DNA from: Synechococcus sp. MU1617
Lineage (GTDB): Bacteria; Cyanobacteriota; Cyanobacteriia; PCC-6307; Cyanobiaceae
Assembly (NCBI RefSeq): GCF_020514235.1
Contig: NZ_VTLB01000006.1
Span: forward strand, 1-64,000
Reading direction: 5' to 3'
Length of the DNA stretch: 64,000 nucleotides
Below are positions 3,079 to 4,955 of the stretch, one piece after another; within the stretch, counting starts at the first letter, position 1, and each line of letters begins with the position of its first letter. The position numbers and the translations under genes are program-made. Under the pieces are notes generated by a model, which had not been told where the DNA came from, made no database searches, and saw nothing but the letters and a program-made list of their open reading frames with translations.

Positions 3079-3103
3079 TAAAAAAACCTCCGTTGAACGG
3101 AGG
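3079..3103 (-). terminator. Rho-independent terminator, leftward
   Basis: Read on the minus strand, a CCTCCG/CGGAGG stem with a TTCAA loop is followed by seven T residues. No annotated minus-strand gene lies close upstream (the next is at 3701-3997, beyond a plus-strand gene), which suggests a short leftward transcript from 3105-3400. Confidence 0.7.
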
Positions 3104-3116
3104 AATAAGCCAAGTA

Positions 3117-3133
3117 ATCCCCATCACCCGGCC
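3117..3133. repeat. 17-base direct repeat, copy 1
   Basis: ATCCCCATCACCCGGCC, identical to 3321-3337. This copy lies just inside the leftward terminator. Confidence 0.8.
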
Positions 3134-3162
3134 TTCCAATAAGTTTAGTGCTTCTCGTCAAG

Positions 3163-3207
3163 TTTGTGCAGCTGATCCACCACATCTGGTGGATTGAATT
3201 GCACAAA
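3163..3207. ncRNA. Nested hairpin of a candidate small RNA
   Basis: An outer 8-bp stem (3163-3170 with 3200-3207) encloses an internal loop (GCTG / TGAAT) and an inner 8-bp stem (3175-3182 with 3187-3194) capped by loop CATC. All pairs are Watson-Crick. The element works on either strand, and the region has outward-facing terminators at both ends (3079-3103 minus, 3335-3360 plus), so strand and ends of the RNA are undecided. Confidence 0.5.
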
Positions 3208-3320
3208 ACACCGCTTAGCGGTCGCTTATCCACAGGAGGGTGGAAAACTTTGGCAGTCCGTGTTGTCGCCGTTTCTTCAGAAGGCCTGCAATCACTGGTT
3301 CGTTCAGGTAGGCTGTGGAT

Positions 3321-3337
3321 ATCCCCATCACCCGGCC
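3321..3337. repeat. 17-base direct repeat, copy 2
   Basis: Exact second copy of the 3117-3133 repeat, 204 bases away. Its GGCC end overlaps the first stem of the plus-strand terminator. Confidence 0.8.
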
Positions 3338-3360
3338 GCCCGCTTGTGGCGGCTTTTTTG
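3335..3360 (+). terminator. Rho-independent terminator, rightward
   Basis: Stem GCCGCC/GGCGGC with a CGCTTGT loop is followed by six T residues. It ends a rightward transcript 40 bases before the next gene, and no plus-strand gene precedes it, which supports a plus-strand small RNA. Confidence 0.75.
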
Positions 3361-3400
3361 TGCCCGTCCTGCCAGTGTGGACCTGTATTCCACAAGCCCT

Positions 3401-3694
3401 ATGACGGTGAACCGGGAGCAGGCAAGGGACGCATTGGCGACACTTCTCGAGGTTTTCGCGGGGCCGAACTACTCGGGTGCGTTGCGCGATGGTGATCTCA
3501 CCACCCGCCTCGATCGATGCACCGGCTGGGTGAAGGCTGAAGCCTCGGAGGCGGCATCCCTGATCGAATCATGCGTTCCGCATGGCAAGCCGATGCTTGC
3601 TCAGGCTCAGCAACGCCTAGCTGTTCTGAAATCGTTGAAAACGTTGCAGGAGGTTGCCGTCAGCCATTTCGGCCCCCTTGACGATCTCAGCTAA
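3401..3694 (+). CDS. Conserved-looking hypothetical protein, 97 aa
   Basis: The ATG at 3401 gives a helical, soluble 97-residue protein (for example EQARDALATLLEVF and AQQRLAVLKSLKTLQEVA). The open frame continues upstream to 3194, but that extension reads through the terminator and the low-complexity hairpin region, so the internal start is preferred. No recognised domain. It converges on the 3701-3997 gene with a gap of only six bases. Confidence 0.55.
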   Translation: MTVNREQARDALATLLEVFAGPNYSGALRDGDLTTRLDRCTGWVKAEASEAASLIESCVPHGKPMLAQAQQRLAVLKSLKTLQEVAVSHFGPLDDLS

Positions 3695-4642: not shown

Positions 4643-4748
4643 TATATTTATTTTGTAGCAACCGCTACGAACGTTCACTTCGCTACACAGCGAAGCGCAG
4701 TTCGACTCAGGGCATGGAACGGGGCCTGAGCTTTCTACGAGGAACACC
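4643..4748 (+). promoter_or_regulatory. Promoter and two-hairpin leader of the DUF4278 gene
   Basis: A -10-like TATATT (4643-4648) lies just upstream of hairpin GTAGC/GCTAC (4655-4659 with 4664-4668) and hairpin CTTCGCT/AGCGAAG (4678-4684 with 4689-4695). GTAGC can also pair with a second GCTAC at 4682-4686, which would break the second hairpin. If transcription starts near 4655, the leader is about 94 nt. Regulation is inferred. Confidence 0.4.
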
Positions 4749-4955
4749 ATGAATGCTCTTCAGCTTCTGAAGGAGCGTGAGCTGCGCGTGCAGCTCCGCA
4801 ACAACTCCAAAAAGGCCGTGGCTCGCGGATCTGAATCCAGCGACTACACCTCTGCGCATCTCTCTCCCGTCAAGTTGGCGAAAGAGAAGGTTGCTCCAAC
4901 TCAGTTGAAATACCGAGGAGTGACCTACGAGGCGATGCGTGCCAATTGGCTCTGA
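4749..4955 (+). CDS. DUF4278 domain small protein
   Basis: This 68-residue basic protein carries the DUF4278 signature KYRGVTYEA near its C-terminus (about residues 54-62). The N-terminal two thirds are charged and probably flexible. DUF4278 proteins are short and common in cyanobacteria; their role is unknown. The gene is monocistronic: it has its own promoter-like leader and a strong terminator 24 bases after the stop. Confidence 0.75.
   Translation: MNALQLLKERELRVQLRNNSKKAVARGSESSDYTSAHLSPVKLAKEKVAPTQLKYRGVTYEAMRANWL

Follow-up and report, generated by a model that had tools for sequence, protein, structure and literature searches.

The window analyzed here, the whole 64,000-nucleotide (nt) stretch at the start of contig NZ_VTLB01000006.1, comes from Synechococcus sp. 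MU1617, which has a 2.32 Mb genome in 10 contigs and belongs to a genus that takes in marine Synechococcus. Our subject is a short block at positions 3079-3360, which a first-pass annotation had described as a gene-free candidate small RNA locus. The features named in that description are there: a minus-strand terminator at the left end (stem 3103-3087, U-run 3086-3080), a plus-strand terminator at the right end (stem 3334-3354, T-run up to 3359), an exact 17-nt direct repeat (ATCCCCATCACCCGGCC) at 3117-3133 and 3321-3337, hereafter called the box, and a two-tier hairpin of 8+8 pairs with inverted arms at 3163-3170/3200-3207 and 3175-3182/3187-3194. The term gene-free is appropriate only insofar as the block gave no match to a known family, but mechanical open reading frames (ORFs) cross it, and one of them (plus strand, 3194-3694) is the upstream extension of a 97-amino-acid (aa) ORF that starts at 3401. 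We favor the reading, with a probability of roughly one half, that the block consists of two tiny, outward-directed RNA genes on either side of a divergent promoter region that they share.

A search with the block gave a match in 20 of the 34 genomes of the genus, nearly full length and with 83-100% identity in 11 of the 34 (its own genome included), and both outward terminators are conserved among the copies. The suggestion to look for further copies of the repeat was also productive, as same-strand box pairs were found at three further loci of the own genome (C1:378057/378232, C1:394948/395100, and C3:77394/77554, in addition to C6:3119/3323 of the block), along with further single box copies and, by exact motif, five left modules. 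This conservation in the genus and the recurrence of box pairs in the own genome speak against a chance origin of the features. Between 2800 and 3600, five terminator-like sites were counted compared to 1.1 (standard deviation 1.2) in shuffled sequences, and the folding z-score of the block is -3.1 on the minus strand and -2.4 on the plus strand. The motif CCCATCACCYGGC occurs in 32 of the 34 genus genomes, with one match overall for the reversed control pattern, and at the family level, 176 of 251 genomes and 51 of 59 genera contain the 14-base motif (reversed control, 10 of 251), with some of the motif matches inside genes.

Paired copies were defined by two same-strand boxes that are separated by 90-280 nt and together have no more than 3 mismatches, a criterion that gave 43 copies and misses those with decayed boxes, such as a copy in G008 with a decayed left box; 10 Prochlorococcus copies added by hand brought the number to 53. 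The paired copies share one order, namely terminator (minus strand), box, palindromes, box, and terminator (plus strand), and whole elements are estimated at about 230-300 nt. As subfamily A was defined by spacing, box distances are given here solely for copies identified through a sequence match. Ten of 11 copies of the window locus have a distance of 204 nt and one has 203 nt, and the divergent copies of G021 and G024 also have 204 nt.

The left module is predicted to encode a minus-strand small RNA (sRNA) of about 56 nt (3080..3135), which would consist of a single GGGG-loop hairpin and, after it, an intrinsic terminator (3080..3103). Its putative start near 3135 was placed from the candidate -10 hexamer TAAACT (3142..3147, minus strand), a TANNNT at a recurrent distance, and the hairpin (3107..3134, loop at 3119-3122), assigned by arm pairing, holds the antibox GGCCGGGUGAUGGGGAU opposite to the left box (3117..3133, plus strand), which is conserved at the locus. 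For alignment A2, 36 left modules were taken from the 53 elements (6 omitted by name, 1 without A-run, 10 near-identical), and dropping L008, L021, L112, and L240 and adding the window resulted in 33 rows, in which 92.4% of the hairpin cells are paired, compared to at most 66.7% in slid controls. Counted over the 28 unique arm sets of the 53 copies, 177 of 196 left arm positions pair on the minus strand (124 Watson-Crick and 53 G.U pairs, 19 others, no A.C), whereas the right box, read in the same way, pairs at 135 of 259. G.U pairs make up 53 of the 72 non-Watson-Crick positions on the left and 60 of 184 on the right, the latter share being about that expected by chance for an arm rich in G and U (the chance level is an estimate). 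In all 43 paired copies, the left box has its more stable fold on the minus strand (mean -12.5 versus -5.5 kcal/mol), and G.U outnumbers A.C by 42 to 13 in the left terminators read on the minus strand (45 unique stems, p = 1e-4). Upstream of GGGTGAT, a TANNNT was found in 30 of 32 representatives, which are not strictly independent of one another, either at 9-14 nt (18/32) or at 32-35 nt (12/32); the respective control windows average 0.66 and 0.41 (maximum 2), and shuffles 4.0 (maximum 11) and 2.8 (maximum 9). In the distal class (32-35 nt), the hexamer is followed by an extra 5' hairpin that is more stable on the minus strand in 11 of 12 cases, in two of them by only 0.1 kcal/mol.

The right module is predicted to give a plus-strand RNA of about 39 nt (3321..3359), whose start was placed from the candidate -10 hexamer TAGGCT (3309..3314, plus strand) at a recurrent distance before the box. 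This RNA would begin with the unpaired box (AUCCCCAUCACCC; 3321..3337), a linear target complementary to the sRNA, directly followed by an intrinsic terminator (3334..3359, from the terminator search) that overlaps the box by 4 nt. In 20 of 37 representatives, a -10-like hexamer has its end 5-8 nt upstream of the right box, compared to an average of 1.0 (maximum 4) at other offsets and 3.4 (maximum 10) in shuffles. The predicted RNA, counted from immediately upstream of the box through the T-run, has a length of 36-47 nt (median 39 nt) in all 53 modules. The 97-aa ORF (3401..3694, plus strand), which has no Pfam match, begins 78 nt after the CCCC of the right box, is a possible read-through target, and adjoins the right box in 11 relatives. 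In 26 of the 51 copies with enough flanking sequence, a plus-strand ORF of at least 60 aa begins 38-160 nt downstream of the box; the window locus accounts for 11 of these copies, and the other ORFs may be mechanical.

The idea that RNAs arise from both strands is consistent with the strand specificity of the left hairpin, the conservation of the terminators, and the recurrence of the -10 hexamers, but the antisense pair considered in the first-pass annotation is unlikely in the form of overlapping transcripts: the predicted RNAs most probably do not overlap, since they would start at the two repeats and run outward, and they are complementary because the repeat is direct. For the two window RNAs (56 and 39 nt), the 17-bp duplex has -39.2 kcal/mol, with a net cofolding gain of -16.7 kcal/mol over the separate folds, and it spans the first four bases of the plus-strand terminator stem. 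When the box is blocked, the right terminator of the window changes from -13.4 to -6.3 kcal/mol, and the mean of the 53 right modules from -12.9 to -4.4 kcal/mol; 51 of the 53 retain no more than half of their energy. By this equilibrium calculation, about two thirds of the terminator energy is lost when the box pairs.

The same box, hexamer distance, and terminator are found in the trpD leader at all eight loci examined in the window genus and other genera of the family, which is not a rate, as these loci were chosen from matches already seen. In these leaders, GATAGT or GATATT ends 8 nt before the box, the terminator comes next, and an ORF of 346-355 aa begins 50-89 nt after the box; the five proteins tested from such loci all exceed the TIGR01245 trpD cut-off. 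A strict leader pattern matched 3 of 146 genomes of the phylum, all three among the 6 genomes of the family and none among the 140 others. Cofolding of the trpD leaders with the window sRNA gave gains of -10.9 to -15.5 kcal/mol, and blocking of the box weakens their terminators from -17.1 to -19.7 kcal/mol down to -9.0 kcal/mol. Since the pairing reaches only about 2 nt into the trpD stem, antitermination at trpD is less certain. The occurrence of the box motif in the trpD leader suggests an RNA switch.

Taken together, we infer an sRNA with a complementary target or decoy, possibly acting via antitermination, in a scheme in which transcription, start sites, binding, and regulation are predicted. 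As the 17-nt repeat is direct, the sRNA holds the exact complement of the box. Contact would begin between its GGGG loop and the CCCC of the box and extend into the 17-bp duplex, which includes the first bases of the terminator stem. For the right RNA, the expected role is that of a decoy for the sRNA or, where a gene follows, such as the 97-aa ORF here or trpD elsewhere, that of a leader whose terminator the sRNA could open. That GGGG-loop sRNAs form a family-wide natural antitermination network that opens the box-terminator leaders of trpD and other genes, with the small right RNAs being spare decoy leaders, is a tentative extension that we regard as rather unlikely.

Several points speak against the view of two outward RNA genes. 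The right box, too, folds better on the minus strand in 43 of 43 copies, with a smaller gap (-5.2 versus -3.0 kcal/mol), so that the sign of the left-box fold is by itself not specific, and a stricter left hexamer test (4 of 6 positions matching TATAAT, 12-14 nt) gave 6 of 32, with 2.2 (maximum 7) in shuffles and up to 9 at other offsets; these two results weaken the reading. The hexamer offset windows were picked after inspection of the sequences, a third TANNNT peak exists at 49 nt (6/32 representatives), and the TANNNT control windows omit both main peaks and the region around 49 nt. On the right side, 17 of 37 modules have no -10 hexamer at the expected place, the strand bias of wobble pairs in the terminators is weak on the plus strand (17 versus 8, p = 0.11), an RNA of 39 nt is unusually short, and in 25 of the 51 copies no plus-strand ORF of 60 aa follows the box. 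A sigma-70 scan found no promoter in the block, the hexamers being without recognizable -35 elements. The sRNA would have to open a stable hairpin before pairing, and the left and right boxes within elements do not covary, as judged by eye. The box may also have a role beyond base pairing, for example, as the binding site of a protein. Covariation across strains, which the first-pass annotation had named as a check, did not materialize in the left hairpin, where the 33 rows of A2 contain no two-sided change and all changes are one-sided, and folding of the whole alignment gave weak covariation terms. In a letter-shuffling control, 500 of 500 shuffles scored as high, which is uninformative, since the 5' arm hardly varies and the control therefore cannot test this hairpin. 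Because of the one-sided changes and this uninformative control, the left-arm pairing is not compensatory covariation.

The counts for the two modules differ, with TANNNT in 30 of 32 left modules versus a -10 hexamer in 20 of 37 right modules, and under the criteria used some left modules have no partner box (e.g., L115, L064, and L088), with L119 being a lone right module. These observations would fit a situation in which the left module alone is a gene for a regulatory sRNA, and the right one is a terminator with a conserved, perhaps protein-bound upstream motif that became its neighbor by chance. We consider this rather unlikely, as divergent right modules retain the antibox complement, the hexamer distance is identical in the trpD leaders examined, and the own genome has as many as four same-strand box pairs. 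Two long, overlapping antisense RNAs that cross the whole block and end at the respective far terminator would account for the conservation of both outward terminators, and in some copies of subfamily C a TATAAA is present upstream of the left terminator on the plus strand. No such TATAAA was seen in the subfamily of the window, the recurrent hexamers adjoin each box and face outward, and the left box folds worse on the plus strand in 43 of 43 copies, all of which makes this arrangement quite improbable.

The first-pass annotation had also raised the possibility of a mobile RNA-like element, and the elements are indeed dispersed, multi-copy, located beside differing genes, and provided with direct repeats at both ends; one copy even lies within a shuffled region (L113; G000 C1:376000-380200), short pieces of which have matches at numerous scattered sites in each of the 10 relatives searched. 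That the block is a non-autonomous mobile element with hairpin ends, like a palindrome-associated transposable element (PATE) or a miniature inverted-repeat transposable element (MITE), is nevertheless very improbable. The terminator stems change in sequence and yet keep the stem, unlike sites that are read by a transposase; the Y1 transposase family of the IS200/IS605 type (PF01797) had no match in the own genome, compared to matches in 5 of 14 control genomes; and the listed matches of a 4.2-kb stretch around another copy, many of which are short and scattered, included no clean empty site. The least credible alternative is a protein-binding DNA region, for example, with DnaA boxes, based on TTATCCACA and its near-complement at 3226 and 3314. 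We take TTATCCACA to be a DnaA-type 9-mer, and the block has one exact copy, but near matches in the window are at chance level (6 versus 5.0), on which ground the DnaA or origin idea was rejected, and the sequence can form a local hairpin in subfamily A. Carriage by viruses was likewise rejected, as the 17-mer occurs in 18 viral contigs, none of which has a second box within 280 nt and several of which look coding by eye. Among named genomes, the listed matches of the 17-mer include unrelated bacteria, whose matches are likely due to chance.

No Rfam family matches the block. Even with a limit of E = 5, Cyano-1 (RF01701) had no match between 2900 and 3500, and it had none in the window at the gathering score; Cyano-2 (RF01702) gave no match in the window, the one match of the own genome being at C1:383974. 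The closest natural precedent that we found is the Yfr2 family: in Prochlorococcus MED4, the adjacent sRNA genes Yfr10, Yfr12, and Yfr18 lie beside Yfr2, Yfr4, and Yfr5 and have motifs able to pair (PMC2518516), yfr2 occurs in several copies at unconserved loci, with non-coding RNA genes often in genomic islands (PMC2518516, PMC6778093), and Yfr2 interferes with Yfr1 and Yfr10 (PMC6778093). The likeness lies in neighboring sRNA genes with pairable conserved motifs. The motifs differ, being ACUCCUCACAC and its partner in Yfr RNAs versus CCCCAUCACCCGG and its complement in the block, where complementarity is exact over 17 nt, and the antibox GGCCGGGUGAUGGGGAU also differs by eye from GUGUGUAGGAG, the partner of the Yfr1 motif ACUCCUCACAC (PMC2518516).

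Among synthetic systems, small transcription activating RNAs (STARs) work by the route proposed here for the leaders (PMC5648800), and the right modules have the layout of STAR targets. The complementarity of the STAR type, to a linear region plus the 5' part of a terminator stem, is present in the computed 17-bp duplex; STARs differ in being designed, whereas the pairing of the block covers 4 stem nt, about 2 in the trpD stem, and is computed only. Yfr103, an abundant non-coding RNA with seven paralogs in Synechococcus CC9605 (PMC5069720), resembles the elements as a multi-copy RNA of related organisms, but its 290-328 nt fit neither the 39- and 56-nt RNAs nor the elements of about 230-300 nt. 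Cyano-2, also a multi-copy sRNA of the same genus, differs by its 204-position model and is a separate gene. From the six Cyano-2 matches in G002, five of which are over the cut-off, we suspect that Yfr103 is Cyano-2. A subfamily-B element lies directly downstream of a Cyano-2 copy in G002 and in G021; in G002, which has 12 motif matches with the window locus among them, it is situated between Cyano-2 and Cyano-1 (Yfr2) RNAs (L062 1785-2524), which makes a cluster of three sRNA types. Cyano-2 copies are preceded by conserved sequence (L337, L341, L343). In literature searches, with most of the subscription literature outside their range, we recognized no paper that describes this RNA pair, and the matches listed in a search with the motif letters were unrelated to the block; a prior description may exist.

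The center of the block is occupied by the two-tier inverted repeat (3163-3207, no strand assigned), which lies between both candidate promoters. As judged by eye from the alignment, its outer tier is complete only in the window row, most relatives having a shorter arm, and it is largely gone in L009-L012, whereas the inner palindrome CACCACATCTGGTG (3178-3191) is mostly retained among the relatives. Sites of the palindrome pattern number 7 in the own genome versus 4 for the reversed control, and 4 of the 7 are in or beside box elements. From its sequence, the inner palindrome is a candidate operator, possibly the site of a shared regulator of both modules.

Other arrangements of the elements were also seen. 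A compact form with boxes 112-113 nt apart occurs in L210, L199, and similar Prochlorococcus loci, and in L116 (1957-2084) two boxes lie on opposite strands, with the antibox hairpin directly upstream of a 110-aa ORF; oppositely oriented boxes of this kind are also present in other genera of the family. Clusters of neighboring proteins mostly reflect orthologous loci, and one small protein family is found near eight elements of differing subfamilies (L018, L021, L062, L098, L100, L102, L104, and L112). Elsewhere in the window, a Glutamine-II riboswitch (RF01704, 62.4 bits) is located at 4669-4730, upstream of a 68-aa ORF (4749-4955).

Few phototrophs are as abundant as marine Synechococcus and Prochlorococcus. 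Prochlorococcus is reported to have very few regulatory proteins (PMC2518516), and cyanobacteria are reported to be without Rho (PMC13289151). If the proposed mechanism is true, it would provide a natural example of an RNA that acts in trans to open a terminator, and an antitermination network, if it exists, would parallel the synthetic STARs in nature and offer a way to tune cyanobacterial genes. A repeated pair of complementary tiny RNAs, connected through its motif to the trpD leader, would constitute a new regulatory layer in marine picocyanobacteria.
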